DNA from: an uncultured Desulfocapsa sp.
GTDB lineage: Bacteria; Desulfobacterota; Desulfobulbia; Desulfobulbales; Desulfocapsaceae
Assembly: GCA_947311475.1 (NCBI GenBank)
Contig: CAMZLK010000107.1
Coordinates: forward strand, 1-40,816
DNA length: 40,816 bases
Direction: 5' to 3'
A program made the translations under genes and the position numbers. Position 1 is the first letter of the stretch, and each line of letters starts with the position of its first letter. Below are positions 6,907-40,816 of this stretch, piece after piece. A model generated the notes under the pieces. The model did no database searches and had not been told where the DNA came from. It worked only from the letters and a program-made list of their open reading frames with translations.

Positions 6907-7533
6907 TTATGAATTACCCAGCATACCTTCGCGTAAAATAAAGGATAAAATTTCATCCGCTCCCTGCCCATTTTTCATATTGGCAAAAATATAGGGGCGC
7001 TCACCCCGCATTTTTTTTGTATCTTTGTCCATAACATCAAGAGAAGCCCCAACCATTGGTGCCAGGTCGACTTTGTTAATTACCAGTAGGTCAGATTTTG
7101 TGATACCCGGGCCGCCTTTGCGTGGAATCTTGTCGCCTGCAGCTACGTCAATGACATAAATGGCAAGGTCGGCCAGTTCCGGGCTGAAAGTGGCACTGAG
7201 GTTATCTCCACCGCTTTCAATTATTATCAGGTCGAGGTTTGGAAATTGTATGATGAAATCATCAACTGCAGCAAGATTCATGGATGCATCTTCCCGAATG
7301 GCAGTGTGAGGGCAACCGCCTGTTTCCACTCCAGTGATACGTTCAGCAGGGAGAGCCTTGCTTTTGGTGAGGAATTTGGCATCTTCACGCGTGTATATAT
7401 CGTTTGTGACGACTGCGACCTGATACTGATTACGCATTTTTCTGCATAGAACCTCGATTAGGGCAGTCTTTCCAGAACCAACGGGGCCGCCAATGCCCAG
7501 GCGAAGAGGTGAAGATGTTGTATCGTTTATCAT
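6907..7533 (-). CDS. ureG: Urease accessory GTPase UreG
   Basis: SIMIBI-class GTPase that powers nickel transfer into apo-urease in complex with UreD and UreF. 208 residues, full length. P-loop [13 protein letters not shown] (about residues 15-27), the [12 protein letters not shown] segment, metal-binding CPH in [15 protein letters not shown], the [18 protein letters not shown] motif and guanine-specificity NKVDLAP are all present. It is the last gene of the urt-ure unit, 38 bp after ureF. UreG is often highly conserved and this copy has no missing key residue. Confidence 0.97.
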
Positions 7534-7571
7534 GATTAAGAGCTCTTTATGAATTATGGGTTTTGCTATTA

Positions 7572-8240
7572 TTATGATCGGTAAAGCCTTGTGTATTGGG
7601 TTTCATGCATGGAACAGGCAAGTGCCAAAGCAGGACTTGAAGCACCTATCTCCCGGTCTTTTATCTGGAAGCCATATTCTACAATACGTGGAATTTCGGG
7701 AATAAACTGCATCAGTAACTGCTGTCCCTGCGTTTGCCCAAGAGGAATGATTTTAATGCCTGTGATAACCTGGTTTTCCAGCCAGGCCCAGACATAGCCC
7801 TGTGCTGCATCCTGCAGGCCGATTTTCCATTGAATCGCAGCCAGCACATATCCTGCCAGCTGGCTTTTTTGGAGTGTTGTTGTCGAGATACGTGTTTTTA
7901 ACAGGTTGAGGCTCTCAAGGAGGGTGGTAAGAGCCCTGCCACGTGTCTGTTCTTCTTCCTGGAGCTCGGAGCTTTCCCGACAAGCAAGAAGAATTCTACA
8001 CCAATGCGTCAGTTTTTTCTGGTCATTATTTTGTATTGCAATGTACATCCGTAAAAGCAAGGGGATGTCCACATACGCCATGGAGTGTTCAGCCAGATCA
8101 AGAAGCCATGATGCAAGGCTTTTACTATCATATATCCAGCCGTTTTCCACTGCCCATTCAAGCCCTTGGGAGTAGCTGAAAGCTCCTGTGGGTAATGTGG
8201 GACTGACCAGATGTAAAAGACGCAGCAGGGAGTTATTCAT
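7572..8240 (-). CDS. ureF: Urease accessory protein UreF
   Basis: Helical chaperone that bridges UreD and UreG in the nickel-insertion complex. 222 residues from the ATG at 8240 ([20 protein letters not shown]), with the conserved [16 protein letters not shown] start of the family and a C-terminal [20 protein letters not shown] tail. A longer frame to 8294 exists but would run 62 bases into ureE. The chosen ATG overlaps the ureE stop by 8 bases (ATGAATAA), typical of translational coupling in urease operons. Confidence 0.93.
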
Positions 8241-8685
8241 GGTGATGACTGTGGCTGTCGTTGGCGTCACCATAGGCTCCGGTTTCCGGTTCAAATGGTG
8301 CTTCGATTTTGACCGGTGAAAATCCCAGTCCTAGTATCATTTCATCCAGCACATGGTCATGCAGGTAGCAGAGGTGATCCGGGCTGATCTGCAGATCAAC
8401 ATGGCGATTTCCCAGATGGTAACAGAGACGCGAAAGCTGTAATGAATCATTGCAATACACAAGTGACAAAGTTTCGCTGGCTGCCAGTATCTCCACAGTA
8501 AATTCATCTGCATTGCTTATGATATCGCCGCCTCGAAGGATAGCGCCGCGTTCCATGAAGAGACCAGCCTCTTCACCCGTGTCGAGCAAAACCCTTTGAC
8601 GGCTTTTAGTCCGTTTGCTCCAGGGCAGTGTGAGTGTTGTCTTTGCTTTTTTACAATGGCTGTCTTTTTTTGTGAGTTGTATCAT
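8233..8685 (-). CDS. ureE: Urease nickel metallochaperone UreE
   Basis: Dimeric nickel-binding protein that delivers Ni(II) to the UreG/UreF/UreD complex. 150 residues. The N-terminal domain has RVLLDTGEEAGLFMERGAIL; the C-terminal ferredoxin-like domain has CYHLGNRHVDLQ, with the conserved interface histidine, then LHDHVLDEMILGLGF. It ends in a short His-rich tail, SHSHHHE, a weaker version of the His tail seen in some UreE proteins. The start is one base after the ureC stop and the stop overlaps ureF. Confidence 0.94.
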   Translation of the reverse strand: MIQLTKKDSHCKKAKTTLTLPWSKRTKSRQRVLLDTGEEAGLFMERGAILRGGDIISNADEFTVEILAASETLSLVYCNDSLQLSRLCYHLGNRHVDLQISPDHLCYLHDHVLDEMILGLGFSPVKIEAPFEPETGAYGDANDSHSHHHE

Positions 8686-8686
8686 A

Positions 8687-10390
8687 TCAAAAGAGAAAAT
8701 AACGTTGTGCCATGGGCAGGATTGAGGCGGGCTCGCAGGTTAAAAGCTCTCCGTCTGCTCTTACTTCATAGGTTTGGGAATCAACTTCAATATCGGGCTG
8801 GTAGTTATTTAACACCATGTCTTTTTTCTGCACTGTTCTACAGTTTTTACACACGCCAATTTTGGAGCGCAGGCCGAGGGTTTCAGCAATGCCCTCATCT
8901 TTTGCAGATTGTGAAAGAAAGGTCAAGCTCGTGGCATTTCCTGCTGTTCCCAAAGCGCCAAACATGGGACGATAATGTACCGGTTGAGGGGAAGGGATGG
9001 ATGCATTGGGATCACCCATCGGGGCTGCTGCGATCATCCCGCCTTTTAATATCAGGCTTGGTTTAACACCAAAGAGTGCAGGCTTCCAGAGCACAAGATC
9101 TGCAAATTTGCCTTTTTCCACAGAGCCAACTTCATGACTGATACCATGGGCAATTGCCGGATTGATGGTATATTTTGCGATATAACGTCTAACCCTCAGG
9201 TTATCATGGTGGCCAGGATCCCCTGAGAGGCTGCCTCGTTGTACCTTCATCTTATGTGCCGTCTGCCAGGTACGAATGATCACCTCGCCCACACGACCCA
9301 TTGCCTGTGAATCCGAGGCAATCATTGAAAATGCACCAAGATCATGAAGGATGTCCTCAGCAGCGATGGTTTCCCTGCGAATCCGGGATTCCGCAAAGGC
9401 CACATCTTCTGCAATCTTTGGATCAAGATGGTGGCAGACCATAAGCATATCGAGATGTTCATCCACTGTGTTAACGGTGTAGGGTCTGGTGGGGTTTGTT
9501 GATGAAGGAAGGACATTGCTGAGGCCACAGGCACGGATTATATCAGGAGCATGTCCACCACCGGCACCCTCTGTATGGTAGGTATGAATAGTTCTGTCCT
9601 TAAAGGCTGCCATGGTCTGTTCCACAAAACCGGATTCATTTAGGGTGTCGGTGTGGATGGCCACCTGTACATCCATAAGCTCAGCCACTGAGAGACAATT
9701 GTTGATGGAAGCAGGTGTCGTGCCCCAGTCTTCATGGAGTTTAAGACCCATGGCACCGGCTTTCACCTGCTCAACAAGCGACTCAGGAAGGCTGGTATTG
9801 CCTTTTCCAAGGAAACCAAGATTCATGGGGAGAGAATCAGCTGCCTGTAGCATCCTGTGAATATTCCAAGGACCGGGTGTACAGGTGGTGGCATTGGTTC
9901 CGGTGGCGGGGCCGGTACCGCCACCAAGCATGGTGGTAATGCCACTCATTAAGGCCTCTTCAATTTGCTGGGGGCAGATAAAATGGATATGGGAATCTAT
10001 TCCCCCGGCTGTAACAATAGATCCTTCCCCTGCAATGGCTTCTGTTCCTGGCCCAATGATGATATCAACTTTCGGTTGAACATCAGGATTGCCTGCCTTT
10101 CCCACACCACTGATTCGTCCGTTTTTAATGCCGATATCGGCTTTGATTATGCCATGGTGATCAAGGATCAGGGCATTGGTTATCACCAGATCTGCCACCA
10201 TCTCTCCTGTCTGCTGGCTCTGTCCCATTCCGTCACGAATTACTTTGCCGCCGCCAAATTTTACTTCATCCCCGTAAATTGTACGGTCTTCTTCCACTTC
10301 TATCCAAAGTTCAGTATCCGCCAGACGTACACGATCACCAGTTGTGGGGCCAAACATCTCTGCGTATGCACTTCGATCTATAGTCTTCAT
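8687..10390 (-). CDS. ureC: Urease alpha (catalytic) subunit
   Basis: Hydrolyses urea to ammonia and carbamate at a dinuclear nickel site in the cytoplasm. 567 residues, standard length. Every catalytic residue falls at the canonical Klebsiella number: His134 and His136 (SHIHFICP), carbamylated Lys217 and His219 (GLKLHEDWG), His246 (AIHTDTL), His272 ([10 protein letters not shown]), the flap residues Cys319 and His320 (MVCHHLD), Arg336 (ESRIRRE) and Asp360 ([11 protein letters not shown]). The C-terminus ends in the usual AQRYFLF. The start overlaps the ureB stop by 4 bases (ATGA). A functional enzyme is expected. Confidence 0.98.
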
Positions 10391-10710
10391 TTTTTATTAC
10401 CCTCATCAAGTGGACCCATAACGACGCCATTAAAACCAAATACTTTACGCAAGCCAGCATAGGCTACAAGTTCGACTTTTCGGTTTTGGCCAGGTTCAAA
10501 CCGAATGGCGGTTCCTGCAGGGATATTCAGGCGGAATCCACGTCCTTCTGTTCGATCAAAAATGAGTGCCTGATTAGTTTCAAAAAAATGATAATGAGAT
10601 CCCACCTGTATTGGGCGGTCGCCACTGTTGGCAACATCGATTATTTTAGTTTCGCGCCCTTTGTTGATTTCAATGTGCCCGTTGGCTGTGATTATTTCTC
10701 CAGGTATCAT
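10387..10710 (-). CDS. ureB: Urease beta subunit
   Basis: Small structural subunit of the (UreABC)3 holoenzyme. 107 residues, beginning [16 protein letters not shown] and containing [21 protein letters not shown], the family signature, then [23 protein letters not shown]. It overlaps ureA upstream and ureC downstream by 4 bases each (ATGA), which indicates translational coupling. UreA and UreB are separate genes here, unlike the fused form of Helicobacter. Confidence 0.97.
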
Positions 10711-11021
10711 AATGCCCCCTTTACAATTGGGTCGTGGACAGTAACAAGTTTGGTACCATCCGGGAAGGTTGCCTCTACCTGTACGCTATCGATCATGTCT
10801 GCAATGCCTTCCATAACATCATCAGTACCAAGTAGTGTTCGACCATAGTCCATAAGTTCTGCAACAGTCTGGCCATCCCTTGCTCCTTCAAGAACCGCTG
10901 CACTTATAAAGGCTACAGCTTCGGGGTAGTTCAGTTTCAGGCCGCGTTCCTTTCTTCTCTCTGCAAGAAGTCCTGCAGTGAAAAGCATGAGTTTATCTTT
11001 TTCTCTTGGGGTCAGTTCCAT
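10707..11021 (-). CDS. ureA: Urease gamma subunit
   Basis: Smallest structural urease subunit, 104 residues from the ATG at 11021 ([20 protein letters not shown]). It includes [20 protein letters not shown] and [20 protein letters not shown], both standard for the family. A longer frame up to 11072 is rejected because it would overlap ureD and the family starts at [11 protein letters not shown]. A GGAG lies 10 bases before the chosen ATG, slightly far but usable. Confidence 0.96.
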
Positions 11022-11046
11022 GGTAAGTAGTCTCCTGGGTTGATGG

Positions 11047-11901
11047 TCAGGTGGCCCATATACGTGGTGCACAACCGTTTCTATTTATAATTTGAGGCCG
11101 TATCAGGGCCCATAACTCTGCAAACAATGCATGTGCGGCAAAGGTGGAATAACCAAGGTATCGTATGATCAGCAGTTCATTGTGAAGAAGTGTTGCTCCA
11201 AACATGGCGGTTTTTTCTTCAGGGACCAGTTCCCGAATGGTATTAAGCATGTCGCAGTTGCCGTTTGTGCTGATAAACGTTGCCGTTACCGGAAAGTCAC
11301 GGAGACCGGTGGGGCGTTGCAGATCCTGTTCATTGTTTACCCGGAACTGATCCATAAAGAGAATTGTATCTTCCCGGTACAGGCTGAGTCTTGTACGCAG
11401 TTGCCCTGTTGTAAAATGGTTTTTATTTACAGGTAGACCAAGACAAAGTATCTCCCATCCCATAAAAGTTGCTGTCGCTGAAAGATCAATGCGTGTTTCA
11501 CATAGAGCATCTGCACCTGGGAAAACAATTGTATCCTGGGGGAACCATTCAAGGGTCGCATCTTTTTCGACTTTCAGGTGTTGTTTCTGTTTTGCAAGTC
11601 TTCCACCGGAACGATAAAATTTTGTTGATCCAGGCGTGGTGAGAAGAACTGATGCATTTTTTTTCACGGTGGCCTCAATCACCAGTCTATCACCACCCAC
11701 AATACCCGCTGGCGGATGGAGGATATACGTATGGCAGACTTCTTTTCCTTCAGGGTAGAGTGGGCGCTGAACCACAAGCGGCCCCTTATGCCGGTTGCGA
11801 CTGAGAACTGTTTTTCCCCGAAAGCGTTCAAATTCAAGTTGCAGATGTCCTGTCCAGCCGGCTGTGGTTGTAAGCTTATACGATGGTACAGGTGCGTTCA
11901 T
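11047..11901 (-). CDS. ureD: Urease accessory protein UreD (UreH)
   Basis: Scaffold chaperone that binds apo-urease and, with UreF and UreG, guides nickel insertion. 284 residues. Diagnostic pieces are [20 protein letters not shown], then [29 protein letters not shown] and [16 protein letters not shown]. It starts 8 bp after urtE and ends 25 bp before ureA, tying the transporter block to the enzyme block. The full complement of maturation factors (D, E, F, G) is present. Confidence 0.95.
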
Positions 11902-11909
11902 ATTGCTGA

Positions 11910-12605
11910 TTAAACAGTAAGATATTTAGTGATGAGTTGTGTGTCGAGGGTATCCATGGCGCCAGTGGCAACAGATCTTCCACGATCCAGAATGGTAAAG
12001 GTATCTGCGACACTTCGTGCAAAGGGGAGTTTCTGTTCAACCAGCAGCACAGTCATGGAGAGGTCATCTTTCAGCCGATTAATAATCTCACCGATTTCCT
12101 GCACAATATTAGGTTGAATCCCCTCCGTTGGTTCATCGAGGATGAGTAGTGTGGGATCAAGGACCAGCGCTCGTCCAATGGCTAGCTGCTGTTGTTGGCC
12201 GCCAGAGAGATCGCCGCCCCTCCGGCTGAGCATTTCATGGAGTACGGGGAAGAGTTCAAAGATAAGCCCTGGAATCTTTTTCTTTTTTATGCGTCCGGTG
12301 CTGAGCCCTATCTCAAGGTTTTCCTGAACAGTGAGCAGAGGAAAAATCTGCCGTCCCTGTGGAACATAGCCAATACCCATGGCTGCACGTTGTTCAGCAG
12401 GATAGTTACCAATGTTCTTTCCTTCAAGAATCATATTTCCTGATCGTATGGGAAGAAGTCCCATAATACATCCCAGCAGGCTGGTTTTGCCAACACCATT
12501 TCGCCCCATCAGGCAGGTGCATTGTCCTTTGGCAACCAGAAGGTCAATATCCCAGAGAGTATGACTTTCACCGTAATACTGGTTTACGTTTTCGATGTGC
12601 AGCAT
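11910..12605 (-). CDS. urtE: Urea ABC transporter ATP-binding subunit UrtE
   Basis: LivF-type ATPase of the branched-chain-amino-acid/urea ABC importer class. 231 residues: Walker A GRNGVGKTS, signature DLSGGQQQQLAIGRAL, Walker B LLILDEPTEGIQPNIV, H-loop region LLVEQKLPFA. The phrase EPTEGIQPNIV is typical of UrtE as opposed to LivF. It lies 3 bp after urtD and 8 bp before ureD. The substrate is assigned from this context. Confidence 0.94.
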   Translation of the reverse strand: MLHIENVNQYYGESHTLWDIDLLVAKGQCTCLMGRNGVGKTSLLGCIMGLLPIRSGNMILEGKNIGNYPAEQRAAMGIGYVPQGRQIFPLLTVQENLEIGLSTGRIKKKKIPGLIFELFPVLHEMLSRRGGDLSGGQQQQLAIGRALVLDPTLLILDEPTEGIQPNIVQEIGEIINRLKDDLSMTVLLVEQKLPFARSVADTFTILDRGRSVATGAMDTLDTQLITKYLTV

Positions 12606-12608
12606 AAA

Positions 12609-13439
12609 TTATCCTCCAAGATAGACTTCAATGACCTGTTGGTTATTTTGCACTTCGTCCATGGTGCCTTCGGCTAGAACCGTTCCCTGATGCAGAACTG
12701 TGACCTTATTGGCAATGGAACGGACAAAATCCATATCATGTTCCACCACAATAACACTGTGGTCTCCTGCAAGAGAGGTGAGCAGTTCTGCTGTCCTTTC
12801 CATTTCCTGATGAGTCATTCCCGCAGCAGGCTCATCCACTAAAAGTAATTTTGGATTCTGCATTAGAAGCATACCTATTTCGAGCCACTGCTTCTGCCCG
12901 TGTGACAATGCACCAGCAAGACGTGTGGACTCTTCCTGAAGACCAATGATCTTCAGTACTTCATCTATTCGGTGCCGTTCCTGTTCTCTCAGGCGTGCTG
13001 TTAATACAGTCCAAACCCCTTTGTTCCCGGCAAGTGCAAGTTCCAGGTTGTCAATAACAGGATGAAATTCAAATACTGTTGGCTTCTGGAACTTACGACC
13101 AATTCCAATGGCTGCAATTTCCGGCTCATCCATCTTGAGCAGATTGATTTGCTGGCCGAACCAGGCAGAACCGCTGTCCGGCGCTGTTTTTCCGGTTATG
13201 ATATCCATCATTGTGGTCTTTCCGGCACCATTGGGACCTATGATACAACGCAGTTCACCGTCCCCGATATAGAGATTTAGATTGTTAATGGCTTGAAACC
13301 CATCAAAACTGACACTTATCCCCTCAAGATATAAAATTATACCGTGGGTGAGATCAAGATCCGGCGGGGTGTCAGGGATGAGGAATTCAAAAACCTGGTC
13401 GCGGCGCATAAAGTTGCGCATGGCATCAAGTGATTTCAT
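12609..13439 (-). CDS. urtD: Urea ABC transporter ATP-binding subunit UrtD
   Basis: LivG-type ATPase, 276 residues. Walker A GPNGAGKTTMMDIITGKT, signature LSHGQKQWLEIGMLLMQ, Walker B LLLVDEPAAGMTHQEMERTA, H-loop VVEHDMDFVRSIA. The LSHGQKQWLEIG form of the signature and DEPAAGMT are characteristic of UrtD. The start overlaps the urtC stop by 4 bases. About 35 residues precede the ABC domain (MKSLDAMRNFMRRDQVFEFL), which may be a family extension or an upstream start choice. Confidence 0.94.
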   Translation of the reverse strand: MKSLDAMRNFMRRDQVFEFLIPDTPPDLDLTHGIILYLEGISVSFDGFQAINNLNLYIGDGELRCIIGPNGAGKTTMMDIITGKTAPDSGSAWFGQQINLLKMDEPEIAAIGIGRKFQKPTVFEFHPVIDNLELALAGNKGVWTVLTARLREQERHRIDEVLKIIGLQEESTRLAGALSHGQKQWLEIGMLLMQNPKLLLVDEPAAGMTHQEMERTAELLTSLAGDHSVIVVEHDMDFVRSIANKVTVLHQGTVLAEGTMDEVQNNQQVIEVYLGG

Positions 13440-14524
13440 ATAACGTGTTCCTTTTTTCGTAAGAGCCCTGTCACGCCACGAGGCAGGAGTAAGGTAACCA
13501 ACACAAAAAGCGCACCTAAAGCAAAGAGCCAGGCATCTGGCATGGCCGCTGTGAGGTAACTTTTGGAATAGTTAACCATCAAAGCTCCTGCAACTGCGCC
13601 ATACAGTGTTGCCCGACCACCAACTGCCACCCATATAACAATCTCTATGGAGCCAAGGGGTGAAAATTCATTGGGGTTAATGATCCCTACCTGTGGTACA
13701 TATAAAGCTCCTGCAATGCCTGCGAGTATGGCAGAGAAGGTGAAAATCCACAATTTGACGTTCTCCACCCGATAACCGATAAAACGGGTTCTATCTTCCT
13801 GGTCACGAATTGCAGTACACACCTTGCCAAGTCGTGATCTGGTAATATAAAGGCAACTGAGATAGCCAAGCCCCAGAGCAAGTCCCGATGCTATAAAGAG
13901 GCCGGCACGAGTTGCATCTGACTGGAGAGAAAAGCCGAGGATATCCTTAAAGTCGGTAAGCCCATTATTGCCGCCAAAGCCCATTTCATTTCTAAAAAAA
14001 GCAAGGAGCAGGGCGTAGGTTAGAGCCTGAGTCATGATGGAAAGATATACACCGGTAACACGGGATCGAAATGCGAGCCAGCCAAAAACCAGAGCCAGAA
14101 GGGCAGGTATGAGTACCACCATAAGCATGGCAAACCAGAACCACTGGAAACCATGCCAGAACCAGGGGAGCTGTTCCCAGTTGAGAAAAACCATAAAATC
14201 CGGGAGAAGGGGGTTGCCGTAAACACCACGGCTGCCAATTTGACGCATCAGATACATGCCCATTGCATAGCCGCCCAAGGCAAAAAAAGCACCATGTCCA
14301 AGGCTCAGTATCCCCATGTAGCCCCAGATCAGATCAACTGAAATTGCAAGAAGTGCATAACAGAGATATTTACCAAGCAGGGCCATTGTATAGCTCGAAA
14401 CATGGAAAATGCTCGTTTCAGGGAGGAGCAGGTTGCATGCCGGAACTAAAATGGTCACCAGGGCAAGCAGCCCCAGTGTAATGTTGCTGCCGGTATCTTT
14501 GCTGAGTAGTTTTATAATCGTCAT
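13436..14524 (-). CDS. urtC: Urea ABC transporter permease UrtC
   Basis: LivM-type inner-membrane permease, 362 residues with about nine to ten hydrophobic segments. WGYMGILSLGHGAFFALGGY is the family signature, followed by FRSRVTGVYLSIMTQALTYA and GGNNGLTDF, both typical of UrtC. The C-terminal EIVIWVAVGGRATLYGAVAG is the conserved cytoplasmic coupling region. It starts 3 bp after urtB and overlaps urtD. Confidence 0.94.
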   Translation of the reverse strand: MTIIKLLSKDTGSNITLGLLALVTILVPACNLLLPETSIFHVSSYTMALLGKYLCYALLAISVDLIWGYMGILSLGHGAFFALGGYAMGMYLMRQIGSRGVYGNPLLPDFMVFLNWEQLPWFWHGFQWFWFAMLMVVLIPALLALVFGWLAFRSRVTGVYLSIMTQALTYALLLAFFRNEMGFGGNNGLTDFKDILGFSLQSDATRAGLFIASGLALGLGYLSCLYITRSRLGKVCTAIRDQEDRTRFIGYRVENVKLWIFTFSAILAGIAGALYVPQVGIINPNEFSPLGSIEIVIWVAVGGRATLYGAVAGALMVNYSKSYLTAAMPDAWLFALGALFVLVTLLLPRGVTGLLRKKEHVI

Positions 14525-14527
14525 AAG

Positions 14528-16159
14528 TTATTCCGCCGCGCGCCCCTTTTGAGGGAATAATCCCTGGGGACGTTTCTGGATAAAAAGAATGATAAATACA
14601 AGGATCAGGATCTTGGCGAGTACTGCACCTGCCCAGGGCTCAATGAATTTATTGGCAACACCCAGTGTTAAGCCGCCAATCAGTGTTCCCCAAAGGTTGC
14701 CAACCCCTCCAAAAACAACCACCATAAATGAATCAATAATATAGGCCTGTCCAAGGTTGGGGCCAACATTGGTAAGTTGAGCAAGAGCCACCCCTGCAAT
14801 ACCTGCAATGCCGGAACCAAGCCCAAATGTAAGCGCATCAACCCGTGCGGCCTTCACCCCCATGGCGCGGGCCATGGCACGATTTTGAGATACTGCGCGA
14901 ACTTGAAGGCCAATTGAGCTTTTACGCAGAAGCAGATAAAGCCCGGCAAAGACCAGCATGGAGAAGATGAGGATGGTTATTCGGTTGGTGGTAAGTGAGA
15001 GTATTGGATTGATTTGAATGGAACCACTCATCCAGGAAGGTGTTGCCACACTGCGATTCAGTGGTGAAAATATGGATCGTACTGTTTGCTGGAGTATGAG
15101 GCTGATACCGAAGGTTGCCAGCAGGGTTTCCAAAGGGCGTCCATATAGAAATCGAATTACGGAACGTTCGATGATAATCCCTGTGACTCCTGAGACAATA
15201 AATGCCGCTGGAATCGATAGTATTAAGGCGATACCAATGGAATTGGGCAGTAATTGTTGTATTACATAGGTTGTGTAGGCTCCAAGCATGATGAGCTCTC
15301 CATGGGCCATATTGATAACTCCAATTACCCCGAAAGTAATGGCAAGGCCTATGGCAGCAAGAACCAGAACCGAGCCAAGGCTGAGTCCAAAGAATAGTTT
15401 TTCAATAAATCCATAGAAGCTGATTGAGGATGCAATGGAAGCCAGTGCGGATTCTGCTTTAGCACGAACTGCATCGTCTTTGCTTTTCCCGAGAAGGGTC
15501 ATGAGTTCATTCCGGACTGCGGGATTGAGATTTCCGGAAAGATCAGAAATTGCAGCTAGTATTTGTGTCGTGTCATCGGTTTTCAGTTTGGCTATGGCCG
15601 TAGCTGTAGCTAATGCTTTTCGTACTTTGTTATCTGTCTCTTTCTGCAGCAGTTCTGCGAGCAGGAGACTGTCCCGGGGGGTGAGGTTTTTGATTAATTT
15701 GTTTACTGCCTGCAGGCGAGTAGTGGAACTCGGGCTGGCAAGATCTATTCGTGCAAGACTTGCCTTCAGGGAGCTTCGCAGTTTATTGTTTATTGTAATC
15801 TTTTTCAGTTTCCTTTTTTTCACAAAGCCAAGTTGCTCTCCTGTGAGGGCAGAGCTGATTTTGGCTTGCGCACTCTTGATTTCTGCATAGACCAGAGTGT
15901 CATCCTTTTTTACCCGGTAAAGTTTACCTTCCAGCATGGCCTGGAGGATGGATTTGGCACGTGAATCACCGCTGTCTGCAACTTGTTTTGTTGCCAGTGC
16001 CTTTTCCTTGAAATTTCCATGAAGGAGATGGCCTATTCCTTCTGTAAATTGAGTTTCTTTTTCGGTCTGTAGGCAAAAAGCAGATTGAGAAAAGAACAGA
16101 GTAAGGAGTAGGGCGGGGATAAACAGCTTGAAATGGAGAACACGTAAAAAAATATGCAT
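14528..16159 (-). CDS. urtB: Urea ABC transporter permease UrtB with N-terminal periplasmic domain
   Basis: LivH-type permease, 543 residues. The first ~30 residues look like a signal peptide or anchor (LFIPALLLTLFFSQSAFCLQ). Residues ~30-240 form a soluble, helix-rich HEAT-like region (DSGDSRAKSILQAMLEG, TPRDSLLLAELLQKETDNKV), typical of full-length UrtB. The permease domain begins near residue 250 and includes GLAITFGVIGVINMAHGELI and VFGGVGNLWGTLIGG. It is separated from urtA by 228 bp carrying a terminator-like hairpin and a long inverted repeat, but is tightly joined to urtC. This gap probably sets the binding protein apart in expression level. Confidence 0.93.
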   Translation of the reverse strand: MHIFLRVLHFKLFIPALLLTLFFSQSAFCLQTEKETQFTEGIGHLLHGNFKEKALATKQVADSGDSRAKSILQAMLEGKLYRVKKDDTLVYAEIKSAQAKISSALTGEQLGFVKKRKLKKITINNKLRSSLKASLARIDLASPSSTTRLQAVNKLIKNLTPRDSLLLAELLQKETDNKVRKALATATAIAKLKTDDTTQILAAISDLSGNLNPAVRNELMTLLGKSKDDAVRAKAESALASIASSISFYGFIEKLFFGLSLGSVLVLAAIGLAITFGVIGVINMAHGELIMLGAYTTYVIQQLLPNSIGIALILSIPAAFIVSGVTGIIIERSVIRFLYGRPLETLLATFGISLILQQTVRSIFSPLNRSVATPSWMSGSIQINPILSLTTNRITILIFSMLVFAGLYLLLRKSSIGLQVRAVSQNRAMARAMGVKAARVDALTFGLGSGIAGIAGVALAQLTNVGPNLGQAYIIDSFMVVVFGGVGNLWGTLIGGLTLGVANKFIEPWAGAVLAKILILVFIILFIQKRPQGLFPQKGRAAE

Positions 16160-16191
16160 GGTGTCAGATTCTCTGGTTTAGGTACAATGGT

Positions 16192-16230
16192 AAAAAGATC
16201 GGAAGCCATGAAATGTAAAGGCTTCCGATC
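16192..16230 (-). terminator. Intrinsic terminator-like hairpin between urtA and urtB
   Basis: Read on the minus strand, GATCGGAAGCC pairs perfectly with GGCTTCCGATC (11 bp, 12-nt loop) and is followed by TTTTT. It sits 33 bp before the urtB ATG. It would be expected to reduce but not abolish read-through, giving more UrtA than membrane components. Confidence 0.75.
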
Positions 16231-16260
16231 AGTATTGGCAGCATATTTGACTGCTGCTGA

Positions 16261-16379
16261 CCCGCATTTCTCATGAACAAACATTTTGTCAATAAAAGGC
16301 CAACAGTTTGGATTCATAACTGAAGCCAACACATTCCCAGCACCTTATTGTTTTACAAAATGTTCATGAGGAATGCGGG
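16261..16379. repeat. Split inverted repeat, arms of 29 and 25 bp, in urtA-urtB spacer
   Basis: Left arm 16261-16289 and right arm 16355-16379 are complementary apart from a 4-base bulge in the left arm and one mismatch (left CCCGCATTTCTCATGAAC; right ends in GTTCATGAGGAATGCGGG). The loop is about 65 nt. The right arm lies 8 bp from the urtA stop. It may be a small mobile palindrome or an mRNA-stabilising 3' structure for urtA. Confidence 0.7.
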
Positions 16380-16387
16380 GATAAGAA

Positions 16388-17674
16388 CTATTTGTTACCA
16401 GAGCAACTTCCTGTCTTTACATTGAAGTTTCCGCAGGAAAGTGGGCTGCGCCAGTCAGATATAAGGTCTTTTGACCCTTCAAGGTAGTCAGACCAGGCAT
16501 CACCGGCTACCTTTCCTGCTGTCTGCCATACGATCTCAAACTGCCCATCTTCCTGGATCTCTCCAATCAGAACAGGTTTTGTGATATGGTGGTTTGGCAT
16601 CATTGCGGAATATCCGCCTGAAAGATTTGGAACGGTAACACCGATGATTGCTTTCTGTACCGCATCAGAATCAGTTGTTCCGGCTTTTTCGACTGCTTTG
16701 ATCCACATGTTAAACCCAATATAATGCGCTTCCATGGGGTCATTTGTTACTCGTTTGTCACTCTTGATAAATTTTTGCCAACTCTCAATAAAGGCATCAT
16801 TGGCCTCACTATCCACACTCATAAAATAATTCCATGCAGCGAGGTGCCCGACAAGAGGTTTTGTATCAATCCCTGAGAGCTCTTCTTCACCAACGGAAAA
16901 AGCAACCACTGGAATGGTATCGGAGCTGATACCCTGATTGCCGAGTTCTTTATAAAATGGGACATTGGCATCGCCGTTAATGGTTGAAACGACAGCTGTT
17001 TTTTTGCCCTCTGTTCCAAATTTTTTGATATCTGAAACAATGGACTGCCAGTCAGAGTGACCAAATGGTGTGTAGTTGATCATGATATCAGCGTCTGCAA
17101 CTCCCTTGGACTTAAGGTAGGCCGCCAGAATTTTGTTAGTGGTTCGTGGGTAAACATAGTCGGTACCGGCAAGAACCCAACGTTTCACATTCATGTCATT
17201 CATCAGGTAGTCAACTGCAGGAATGGCCTGCTGGTTTGGCGCAGCACCGGTGTAAAAAACATTTTTTGAGGACTCTTCGCCTTCGTATTGTACAGGGTAG
17301 AAGAGAAGACTGTTCAGCTCTTCAAAAACCGGAAGTACAGATTTTCTGGAAACGGATGTCCAGCAGCCAAAAACAGAAGCGACATGCTTTTTTTCAATGA
17401 GTTCACGAGCTTTTTCAGCAAAAAGTGGCCAGTCAGACGCAGGGTCTATCACCACTGCTTCAAGCTGCTTCCCCAGAAGCCCACCTTTTTTATTTTGCTC
17501 TTCAATCAACATGAGCATGGTGTCTTTTAAGGTGGTTTCACTAATTGCCATGGTACCTGACAGAGAATGCAGAACGCCAACCTTGATGGTCTCGGCGGCC
17601 ATGGCCTGGCCGCCAAGTACAGATCCAATGGATAGTGCACAGCCGAGCATGGCTGCAAGTATTTTTGTTTTCAT
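16388..17674 (-). CDS. urtA: Urea ABC transporter periplasmic substrate-binding protein UrtA
   Basis: Type I periplasmic binding protein that captures urea. 428 residues from the ATG at 17674, with a clear Sec signal peptide (MKTKILAAMLGCALSIGSVL, cleavage after QAMA, then AETIKVGVLHSLSGTMAISE). The FGCWTSVSRKSVLPVFEE and LLFYPVQYEGEESSKNVFYT segments are diagnostic of UrtA as opposed to LivJ-type proteins. A GGGAGAAG precedes this ATG by a good spacing. A longer frame to 17758 is rejected: it would add 28 residues before the signal peptide and overlap the promoter. First gene of the urea operon. Confidence 0.95.
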   Translation of the reverse strand: MKTKILAAMLGCALSIGSVLGGQAMAAETIKVGVLHSLSGTMAISETTLKDTMLMLIEEQNKKGGLLGKQLEAVVIDPASDWPLFAEKARELIEKKHVASVFGCWTSVSRKSVLPVFEELNSLLFYPVQYEGEESSKNVFYTGAAPNQQAIPAVDYLMNDMNVKRWVLAGTDYVYPRTTNKILAAYLKSKGVADADIMINYTPFGHSDWQSIVSDIKKFGTEGKKTAVVSTINGDANVPFYKELGNQGISSDTIPVVAFSVGEEELSGIDTKPLVGHLAAWNYFMSVDSEANDAFIESWQKFIKSDKRVTNDPMEAHYIGFNMWIKAVEKAGTTDSDAVQKAIIGVTVPNLSGGYSAMMPNHHITKPVLIGEIQEDGQFEIVWQTAGKVAGDAWSDYLEGSKDLISDWRSPLSCGNFNVKTGSCSGNK

Positions 17675-17753
17675 TTTCTTCTCCCTCATTGTTATTTTTG
17701 AAAATATACTTCGTCTGTTTTTGCGAAGTCGTTTTGATTTCGGATTGTTGTAG

Positions 17754-17770
17754 AGCACATGGCATGCCAG
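17754..17770 (-). promoter_or_regulatory. Candidate sigma-54 (-24/-12) promoter for urtABCDE-ureDABCEFG
   Basis: Minus-strand CTGGCATGCCATGTGCT fits YTGGCACGNNNNTTGCW at all fixed positions but two, with GG and GC separated by the obligatory 10 bases. Transcription would start near 17743, about 70 nt before the urtA ATG. A GGTGC/GCACC inverted pair lies just upstream (17783-17805), reminiscent of NtrC half-sites but closer than usual. Nitrogen control of urea uptake through sigma-54 is known in other bacteria; here it is inferred from the motif. Confidence 0.6.
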
Positions 17771-23370: not shown

Positions 23371-23508
23371 AGTCTGTCCGAGAATGCCCCTTTTGCCCAA
23401 ACTCTTTAGAATTGTCAAAAAATAATGCTCGCAATATCAATCATATGGCTGCGCTTATTTTCTGAAAATTCTTCGATTTTGAACAAAATGTCTATTCTCG
23501 GACAGGCT
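23371..23508 (+). repeat. Dispersed palindromic repeat family B, copy 1 (short form)
   Basis: 138 bp bounded by inverted repeats AGTCTGTCCGAGAAT (23371-23385) and ATTCTCGGACAGGCT (23494-23508), 14 of 15 matched. The internal sequence is nearly identical to copy 2 at 40399-40563 but lacks its ~22-bp left-arm module. It starts 12 bp after the serA stop. Confidence 0.85.
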
Positions 23509-23525
23509 CTTGATATGTTAATTCG

Positions 23526-39038: not shown

Positions 39039-40325
39039 TTATTTTTTATGGGTTGCTCTCATTGTTCTTGCGAGTTCTTTTACTTCTCCCAGATCTTCAG
39101 TCATCATGTTCCAACCGTACCAGTAGGCATAGTCGGGGTTGACGTGGAAAAATGCCTGGTATGCCCGCATGCGGTGTTTCATGTACATGCGTACCAGAAT
39201 CTGGTCAATATAGGACAGCTTATCCAGTTCCTGATCCCAGTTAGCGCCATTGGTGTGCATCATGGTGAGAAGGAAGGGGTAGTTAAAAGGATATGCAGCT
39301 GGTTTCTCAATGATTCCGTCTTTGTAGAGAGCAGCAACGGTTTCAATGGCTTCTGCCATCAGGCGGTCAGCTTTTGAAAGAATTGCATCGCCAGCGTCAA
39401 GCTGTGTTTTTGCATAATTCATGGAATGACACTGAGTACAGGTCTTGAGCATTTTATCACGCTCTTTTTGCCAAGATGCCTGATCCGCGCGAACCATATC
39501 AACAGACAATACTACGTTAAGAAGATCTGTGGTCTTACCACTTTCCGGATCAATAACTCCCAGTGCTTTCAGGATGGTAATACGATCAGCTTTTTCCTGT
39601 GCATCTTCAGGAAAAGGAAGACGTACACCAAGGAATCCCCAGGCAGTGTGGTTTTCGTGGGTTCCATCAGGAAGATGACAGGTCTGACAGGTGGGTGCTG
39701 TGGCAGACCCTGGCAGATCTCCAGCCAGCTTTGCAAAGTAGCGCATACCGTGCTTGGAGCTTGACCACATTTCCCATTGTGGGTGATCGTAGCCCATGTG
39801 GCACTGTTGACAGGCCCTTGGGTTAGTTGCTTCCTTCTTGGAGAAGGTGTGACGGGTATGACATTCGTCACAGGAGTTAGTTTGGTAACGATACCCTGCA
39901 TCAAGCTGAGCTTTTACCTCAGCATCAGTTCTGATACCCATATTGTGACAACCGCCACAACCGCGTCCACCTTCTATCAACTCATCTGGTGCCATATGGG
40001 TTGCAGGGATAGCATTTAGTACTGCCCATCCATAGTTATGCTTACCCTTTTTAAAAGATTCGAACTGCTCTTCATGACATTCGGCACAGACGGCCTCATT
40101 GGGCAATTTTGCCTTTAAGAAATCTTCTGCGGTGGAGTGTGCGTCTCCGTGACAGGTTGAACAGGTGACATCATTTTTCGAATGCTCAGATGTTTTCCAG
40201 TCCGCGACCATGCCAGGGGACACCTTGGTGTGACATTCAACACATTTGTCAGCTGCCCCGGCAATTCCTGCTGTGGACAACAGAACAAAGGCACCTGCAG
40301 CCAGTACTGTTTTTAATTGAATCAT
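39039..40325 (-). CDS. Octaheme c-type cytochrome, hydroxylamine oxidoreductase (HAO) family
   Basis: 428 residues, exported to the periplasm by a Sec signal peptide (LKTVLAAGAFVLLSTAGIAG, cleavage near AGA-A, residues 24/25). Eight CXXCH haem sites: Cys28, 55, 80, 123, 152, 172, 213 and 296. The order and spacing, with RGCGGCHNMG as haem 4 (the catalytic position in HAO), CDECHTRHTFSKKEATNPRA at haem 5 and CQQCHMGYDHPQWEMWSSSK at haem 6, fit the HAO family. It is shorter than Nitrosomonas HAO. Several tyrosines occur in NPDYAYWYGW (about 392-400), but I cannot say whether one is the haem-crosslinking tyrosine of true oxidases. In non-nitrifying anaerobes such proteins are thought to reduce nitrite or hydroxylamine. 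GGAGG precedes the ATG. No NrfH/CycX-type quinol partner is visible in the window. Confidence 0.87.
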   Translation of the reverse strand: MIQLKTVLAAGAFVLLSTAGIAGAADKCVECHTKVSPGMVADWKTSEHSKNDVTCSTCHGDAHSTAEDFLKAKLPNEAVCAECHEEQFESFKKGKHNYGWAVLNAIPATHMAPDELIEGGRGCGGCHNMGIRTDAEVKAQLDAGYRYQTNSCDECHTRHTFSKKEATNPRACQQCHMGYDHPQWEMWSSSKHGMRYFAKLAGDLPGSATAPTCQTCHLPDGTHENHTAWGFLGVRLPFPEDAQEKADRITILKALGVIDPESGKTTDLLNVVLSVDMVRADQASWQKERDKMLKTCTQCHSMNYAKTQLDAGDAILSKADRLMAEAIETVAALYKDGIIEKPAAYPFNYPFLLTMMHTNGANWDQELDKLSYIDQILVRMYMKHRMRAYQAFFHVNPDYAYWYGWNMMTEDLGEVKELARTMRATHKK

Positions 40326-40398: not shown

Positions 40399-40563
40399 AG
40401 GAGCCTGTCCGAGAATGCCCTTTCGGAGTCTCGTTCCTCGCTACCTGCCCAAACTCTTTAGAATTGTCAAAAAATAATGCTCGCAATATCAGTCATATGG
40501 CTGCGCTTATTTTCTGAAAATTCTTCGATTTTGACCAAAATGCCTATTCTCGGACAAGCTCCT
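40399..40563 (+). repeat. Dispersed palindromic repeat family B, copy 2 (long-left form)
   Basis: 165 bp with inverted-repeat ends AGGAGCCTGTCCGAGAAT (40399-40416) and ATTCTCGGACAAGCTCCT (40546-40563), 17 of 18 matched. The core is almost identical to copy 1. A ~22-bp module (CGGAGTCTCGTTCCTCGCTA and two more bases, near 40424-40445) is inserted in the left arm; its approximate complement occurs in the right arm of copy 3. Confidence 0.85.
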
Positions 40564-40631
40564 AGTCATATTACAAATAATTCAAGTATAAGTAAAAGTG
40601 AATCATAATTCTTTGATATAAGTCAAATGTT

Positions 40632-40816
40632 GATGGCGTCGTAAAAACTCTTCATGTGCGCCTCGCATATGAAGTTTTTTACTTAGCCATCGGGATTTTA
40701 ACCTTTTTACGAGTTTATCAAATGTTGATAAACTCGTAAAAAGGTCGAAAACAAGATGGACTTGGAAAAACCTTCATATTCGAGGCACGGAAATTTCTTA
40801 TCTTTTCGGCGTACTA
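40632..40816 (-). repeat. Dispersed repeat family A, copy 3: head-to-head pair, cut by window edge
   Basis: 40632-40720 is the inverted complement of copy 1 without its central hairpin module: GATGGCGTCGTAAAAACTC is followed at once by GCGCCTCGCATATGAAG and then by CCTTTTTACGAGTTTATC. After a short AAATGTT spacer a second, diverged unit starts in the opposite direction (GATAAACTCGTAAAAAGGTC) and runs to TTTTCGGCGTACTA at the edge. The junction GTTTATC-AAATGTT-GATAAAC is itself palindromic. Confidence 0.75.

Follow-up and report, generated by a model that had tools for sequence, protein, structure and literature searches.

In sediments, bacteria that reduce sulfate or disproportionate sulfur encounter nitrite and NO, and the HAO-like octaheme cytochrome genes that they carry have no settled role. 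One such gene, found in an uncultured Desulfocapsa sp., raises the question of whether its product reduces or oxidizes nitrogen compounds, and of what purpose it serves as an apparent orphan. The window analyzed here (40,816 nucleotides) comprises all of contig C107 from a draft genome (G000) of 3.16 Mb in 220 contigs, 95.6% complete. The octaheme gene is an ORF on the minus strand (39039–40325) that starts with ATG and codes for 428 amino acids. Elsewhere the window contains genes for urease and for an ABC transporter of the urea type (6907–17758, read from translations), and a match to the Rfam family 5_ureB_sRNA was found at 9955–10237 (plus strand, 81.6 bits). The match is antisense to a urease-like ORF (8687–10390) and therefore may reflect coding conservation and not an RNA gene.

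The protein has eight CxxCH motifs (residues 28, 55, 80, 123, 152, 172, 213, and 296) that consume all 16 of its cysteines, in agreement with the heme count of the initial annotation. Over the whole window the corresponding DNA pattern gave 14 matches, eight of them within this ORF, against 3.36 expected per window by shuffling, and none of 100 shuffles attained 14. The N-terminus resembles a cleavable Sec signal, cut perhaps after AGA at residue 23–25. The fourth motif (CGGCH, residues 123–127; 39945–39959, minus strand) aligned with heme 4 of HAO, which we take to be the catalytic heme. Asp180 and His181 (39783–39788, minus strand) aligned with Asp267 and His268 of NeHAO, a pair that presumably has its role at the catalytic heme, and neither residue varies in any of the 98 orthologue rows. 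The initial annotation had remarked that the protein was only 428 residues long. The length is correct, but it is not a sign of truncation because the orthologues are similarly long, and with all eight motifs kept a truncated or degraded HAO could be ruled out. Among the paralogues many have 413–468 amino acids and others 500–594. The protein is a complete, compact member of the HAO-like family.

This family assignment, already proposed in the initial annotation, was supported. Pfam PF13447 matched the protein at E 7.5e-25, and no NCBIfam model attained its cut-off. Searching the PDB with a profile of 33 orthologues retrieved 10 sequences, of which seven were named HAO-like or hydrazine dehydrogenase (HDH), the other three being 4qo5 (“hypothetical multiheme protein,” which we take to be IhOCC of Ignicoccus) and two weak matches (ONR 8rv0, 6i5b). 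The best match was kustc0458 (6h5l, E 2e-31), and there were further matches to Brocadia and Kuenenia HAO, Nitrosomonas HAO, HDH and 4qo5, with ONR at E 1e-4. A first monomer model from 33 close rows had a pLDDT of 68.3 and a second one from 41 rows reached 76.6, a moderate quality, with residues 141–190 (around hemes 5 and 6) at block means of 43–59. The fold search with the model placed 6h5l on top (Z 19.0, 28% identity over 339 residues, rmsd 3.9), together with HAO chains (Z 17.4–16.1), HDH (16.1) and 4qo5 (15.2). Below these HAO-type chains there was a gap, and then came ONR (Z 7.5–7.2) and NrfA (7.4 at most). Chains of OTR and MccA were absent from the list of fold scores, an absence that by itself excludes nothing. 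MccA is recognized by its CX15CH heme motif. Neither this motif nor CxxCK, the signature of ONR and OTR (PMC12142623), occurs in the 428-residue sequence. The octaheme families ONR, OTR, and MccA, named in the initial annotation as the alternative placement, were in this way ruled out by the heme motifs, and ONR also by the fold score. Eight c-heme motifs in the HAO order and the HAO fold place the protein within the octaheme HAO-like superfamily (OCC). A rough unrooted tree separated the family and its nearest sisters from all else (branch support 0.999), and another branch (0.997) set apart from the rest the epsilonHAO-like paralogues of the Met type that belong to the same order, with kustc0458 and HAO joining between the two groups.

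The choice between an oxidase-like and a reductase-like protein had been left, in the initial annotation, to the presence of the tyrosine of the P460 crosslink. NeHAO (Nitrosomonas), KsHAO (Kuenenia), Brocadia HAO, and HDH all contain His-x7-Tyr, the tyrosine being preceded by threonine, and pairwise alignments among these four structures were gapless between the histidine and the tyrosine. This tyrosine at His+8 is presumably the residue crosslinked to heme 4. At the same spacing from His394 our protein has not tyrosine but Trp402 (codon 39120–39122, minus strand), with Tyr401 and Tyr403 on either side. The same His-x7-Trp is found in kustc0458 (HAOr), a reductive protein without the Tyr-heme crosslink, which aligned gaplessly with the octaheme at this site. 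His394, Trp402, and Tyr403 were present in all 96 usable orthologue rows (the other two of the 98 stop short of the site), and position 401 was Tyr in 90 of the 96. In the paralogues, Met or His followed by Trp eight residues later was found in 24 of 31 rows, seven not matching the pattern, and position 403 was His in many of them (WWHG or HWHG types). Three longer relatives with ten CxxCH motifs (L125, L127, and L130; 542–560 amino acids) have the same His-x7-Trp-Tyr-Gly ending as the octaheme family, and a smaller sister group (L143 and L030, ca. 46% identity) has HLMPDYTTWYG at the key site.

Judged by sequence spacing alone, the crosslinking tyrosine of the oxidative HAO and HDH is missing and, as in HAOr, Trp takes its place. 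This Trp has been described for Campylobacterota proteins, in which the epsilonHAO rule is a Met eight residues before it (PMC8940962, after Haase); here the anchor is His394 and not Met. The automatic alignments were less clear. Both HMMER and MAFFT put the tyrosine of NeHAO (Tyr467) on Tyr401 and that of KsHAO on Tyr403. Since NeHAO and KsHAO align gaplessly with each other and yet the two placements conflict, at least one of them must be wrong. Calling this clade oxidative or reductive from an automatically aligned tyrosine column is therefore unsafe, because three adjacent positions compete for it. The presence of Trp402 at the tyrosine spacing would favor reduction over oxidation, a strong indication but not proof, because the alignment programs are one residue apart and Trp402 has conserved tyrosines on both sides.

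A scan of named genomes detected 494 related stretches, from which we took the best 80 (identity of at least 64%). The nearest named match carried the title Desulfocapsa sulfexigens, and Desulfobulbaceae or Desulfocapsa stood in the titles of many others. Among these best 80 of 494, the titles also included Desulforhopalus, Desulfuromusa, Malonomonas, and Desulfoprunum, as well as MAGs titled Krumholzibacteriota, Zixibacteriota, Acidobacteriota, and Gemmatimonadales. Over 56 genomes (this one and 55 relatives) the octaheme had a match in 44 at 1e-10 and in 30 at 1e-90 or below, the weaker matches being mostly distant HAO-like paralogues or fragments. One relative carries, besides an intact copy, a copy of the octaheme family with two in-frame TGA codons (G010:C58:34637–35848). 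NrfA and the octaheme coexist in relatives such as G002, G007, G010, G013, and G018, and co-occurrence with NrfA was uninformative. The Prismane family was matched in 56 of 56 genomes, and as such a match can be Hcp or CO dehydrogenase alike, its co-occurrence tells nothing.

The gene had also been described as an orphan with no quinol dehydrogenase or nitrogen-oxide gene adjacent. Downstream, within the window, this is so; upstream the statement covers just the 491 bases that remain before the contig, and with it the window, ends. An adjacent partner cytochrome of the kustc0457 kind is likewise missing from the window, the upstream side of which ends with the contig. The relatives bear out the orphan state more broadly. 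We tabulated 75 of the 80 named loci within the available flank, and another ORF with at least three CxxCH motifs was located nearby in five of the 75 (L038, L050, L059, L101, and L104; smaller cytochromes uncounted). Neither a CycX/NrfH-like nor a tetraheme quinol dehydrogenase partner is conserved over the 75 loci (L101 and L104 may be exceptions), and the octaheme gene stands alone in most relatives. In L101 (1407–3403) the octaheme gene is followed on its own strand by a four-heme ORF (183 amino acids) 97 bp downstream and then by another octaheme ORF, possibly forming an operon in this one relative. The four-heme ORF of L104 (176 amino acids) is divergent and lies 614 bp upstream of the octaheme gene. 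A conserved operon partner could be discarded: the recurring neighbors are, judging by their translations, a divergent tatC-like gene upstream (ca. 20 loci) and, downstream, a GIY-YIG gene and an NtrC-type regulator, and they seem to reflect synteny within the lineage. Neighbors of the nitrogen-stress type were seen as well, namely hcp (L014 and L063), HPP-CBS (L016) and, named from translations, an frdX-like gene immediately preceding the octaheme gene (L102 and L106), hemerythrin-like genes (L015, L027, L028, and L050) and flavodiiron-like genes (L063, L096, L103, and L105), but they are given little weight because there is no background rate to set them against.

Two other heme proteins of this genome deserve a description. 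One, on contig C38 (L112, 4105–8397), is an HAO-like octaheme of 528 amino acids and of the Met-x7-Trp type, in a row with a tetraheme cytochrome, an FeS protein and an NrfD-like protein (from translations) that resembles a four-gene locus of Thermosulfurimonas and Dissulfuribacter (PMC5276818). The other, on contig C124 (L174, 2292–4175), is an eight-heme protein of 628 amino acids and the only match of the genome to Cytochrom_C552 (NrfA-type), partial and at 49 bits.

A palindrome, TTGACTTAWGTCAA, was seen upstream of octaheme orthologues. Its relaxed form, TTGAYNNNNRTCAA, was found in 32 of 93 octaheme upstream regions vs. 3 of 340 regions before other genes from the same loci (Fisher 1.3e-20); for the strict form, TTGACNNNNGTCAA, the counts were 18 of 93 vs. 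3 of 340 (Fisher 1.8e-10), P values that are not to be taken literally since the loci share ancestry and the test treats them as independent. As a reference, random segments of the same loci contained the relaxed form in 3.8%. In 29 of the 32 cases the palindrome begins 83–149 bp upstream of the ATG, and it stands out from flanks that have diverged, since a comparison of 8-mers showed 92 of the 93 upstream regions to be distinct. It was also present in loci whose titles name Geobacteraceae, Desulfuromonadaceae, Desulfuromusa, and Desulfuromonadales (L047, L054, L058, L067, and L070). The perfect palindrome is missing from 61 of the 93 upstream regions, and none was detected in the eight loci titled Krumholzibacteriota/Krumholzibacteriia or Zixibacteriota.

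This palindrome equals the HcpR consensus given for deltaproteobacteria other than Desulfovibrio (Geobacter, Desulfotalea, and Desulfuromonas), wyTTGACnnnnGTCAArw (PMC1274295), a close variant of which appears in PMC545781. At the level of the family, a TTGACnnnnGTCAA-type operator like that of the HcpR regulon precedes the octaheme gene in these 32 of 93 cases. The best-scoring 30 CRP/FNR loci from the relatives all encode a protein with the Pro-Glu recognition helix that has been described for the HcpR1 of such deltaproteobacteria (PMC1274295). The regulatory idea may be partly anticipated, since Table 10 of PMC545781 places a cytochrome c gene of Desulfuromonas (390999) next to frdX1 with a site of this kind, and this gene may belong to the octaheme family described here, although the table itself does not call it an octaheme. 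A search of the open-access literature found no report tying this octaheme family to HcpR (the accessible part of PMC10949509 deals with a bacterium without HaoA and names HcpR only in a reference), and we regard the enrichment of the palindrome before the octaheme orthologues as new. It would link a large clade of stand-alone octahemes to the NO response.

The copy in the window departs from this arrangement. Its HcpR/FNR-type palindrome, TTGATATAAGTCAA (40613–40626), fits only the relaxed form, one half-site departing from the strict motif, and lies 288 bp before the start codon vs. ca. 107 bp in the near relatives, a displacement of ca. 180 bp. Between the palindrome and the gene there is a MITE-like repeat element of ca. 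165 bp (40399–40563) with 18-nt terminal inverted repeats (94% complementary), present in at least 40 places of the genome at E < 1e-40 (40 of 154 candidates scored), including 23394–23509. As the repeat separates the displaced palindrome from the gene, HcpR control may be weaker for this copy. Neither the palindrome nor the intervening repeat had appeared in the initial annotation. Just past the palindrome, on the side of the contig end, a second inverted repeat is located (40660–40786; 62-nt arms, 81% complementary, 3 nt between them). In the draft genome the relaxed motif occurs in 24 places vs. 13 for a reversed control. We inspected 21 of them, and 13 were inside ORFs or downstream of genes and eight before genes. 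The latter are found 135 bp before hcp (NCBIfam hydroxylamine reductase, 802.8 bits), 76 bp before an FrdX-like ferredoxin gene, 92 bp before a CBS and HPP-membrane-protein operon, before a ResB gene (a site that is inside a 75-aa ORF), before the octaheme gene and, in three of the eight cases, before genes that have nothing evident to do with nitrogen oxides (by their translations an frr-like gene, a purA-like gene and one for an ABC-ATPase). The HcpR1 gene was not found in this draft genome (95.6% complete), where the best match was 26% identical. The only full CRP/FNR-type protein found in it (contig C126, 218 amino acids) was rejected as HcpR1, with a recognition helix SRQ and this 26% identity.

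We consider it likely, though well short of certain, that the octaheme is a reductive HAO-fold protein serving the nitrosative-stress response, most probably by detoxifying NO or hydroxylamine under HcpR. A reductive or NO-detoxifying role had already been guessed at, and Trp402 and the HcpR-type palindrome would both support it. From these features we infer the following scheme. The protein would be a soluble periplasmic cytochrome with the HAO fold, of the crosslink-free, reductive type. From the periplasmic cytochrome pool, electrons would travel through the bis-His hemes to heme 4 and there reduce NO, hydroxylamine or nitrite, with ammonium as the most likely end point and with Asp180 and His181 supplying the protons. 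Heme 4 is expected to be free of a Tyr bond, favoring reduction, because Trp402 occupies the position of the tyrosine of oxidative HAO and HDH. In the lineages carrying the palindrome, an NO-responsive HcpR1 would switch on the octaheme together with hcp and frdX.

A respiratory role, with the octaheme as an energy-conserving terminal reductase that replaces NrfA in nitrite ammonification, seems unlikely to us. A full NrfA was not found in this genome, HAO-like octahemes have been proposed as nitrite reductases of ammonifying sulfur bacteria (PMC5276818), and a second octaheme of Desulfurivibrio dismutans, whose family is left unstated in the accessible part of PMC12142623, is strongly upregulated with nitrate. 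However, a quinol-oxidizing partner is not conserved, NrfA and the octaheme are found together in relatives, and the other HAO-like octaheme of this genome, in its row with tetraheme, FeS and NrfD-like proteins, looks more respiratory. Stress defense is also the better fit to a motif that the octaheme gene has in common with hcp and the FrdX-like gene. It is quite unlikely, too, that the HAO scaffold has been turned to electron transfer or to a substrate other than nitrogen compounds, e.g., metals, sulfur oxyanions or extracellular electron transfer. The substrate is not evident from the sequence, the gene is an orphan in sulfur and metal reducers, and even HAOr reduces nitrite slowly (0.52 nmol/min/mg; PMC12485887), but the invariance of Asp180-His181 speaks against such a role and the palindrome indicates nitrogen oxides.

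The conserved tyrosines flanking Trp402 leave room for an oxidative P460-type enzyme, in which Tyr401 or Tyr403 of a neighboring subunit would be bonded to heme 4 and hydroxylamine or a related compound oxidized. Besides the invariance of Tyr403 and the frequency of Tyr401, the HMMER pairings of both tyrosines with those of NeHAO and KsHAO go in this direction, and a separate His-to-Tyr change reported within Desulfobacterota (PMC12758564), which may refer to the column of position 403, would fit. Against this, NeHAO and KsHAO are gapless from histidine to tyrosine and both, with HDH, have the Tyr at His+8, where the crosslink-free kustc0458, gapless against our protein, has Trp; we find such an enzyme distinctly unlikely. 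A bolder version, in which the His-to-Tyr change at 403 (with Tyr401) gave strict anaerobes an independent P460-type octaheme with its own bond to heme 4, so that Desulfobulbales would oxidize hydroxylamine or NO-derived compounds under NO control, is very unlikely.

Returning to the reductive, stress-related protein that we favor, it has the HAO fold and would be of the reductive type, and it represents a subfamily for which no assay was found in the open-access literature. Among the known systems, kustc0458 (HAOr of Kuenenia, 6h5l) is the closest, being the best match in sequence and fold and sharing the His-x7-Trp and the Asp-His pair. However, its solved chain has 517 residues, ca. 90 more than the 428 found here, both fall on separate branches of the rough tree, and it has the partner kustc0457 (PMC12485887), whereas the octaheme gene lacks a conserved partner. 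The HAO of Nitrosomonas and Kuenenia (1fgj, 4fas, and 4n4j) and HDH (6hif) share the fold (Z 16.1–17.4), the eight heme motifs and the Asp-His pair, but have Tyr at His+8 in place of Trp402. The epsilonHAO-like reductases (Campylobacterota proteins and Met-x7-Trp paralogues) also have Trp eight residues after the anchor, yet theirs is Met and not His394, they lie apart in the tree (0.997), and the octaheme again differs in having no conserved partner. 4qo5 has the octaheme HAO fold in common (Z 15.2), at 23% identity and with 521 residues. With the HcpR regulon of deltaproteobacteria, the octaheme upstream regions share the palindrome. On the whole, the protein would work most like kustc0458, minus the conserved partner gene.
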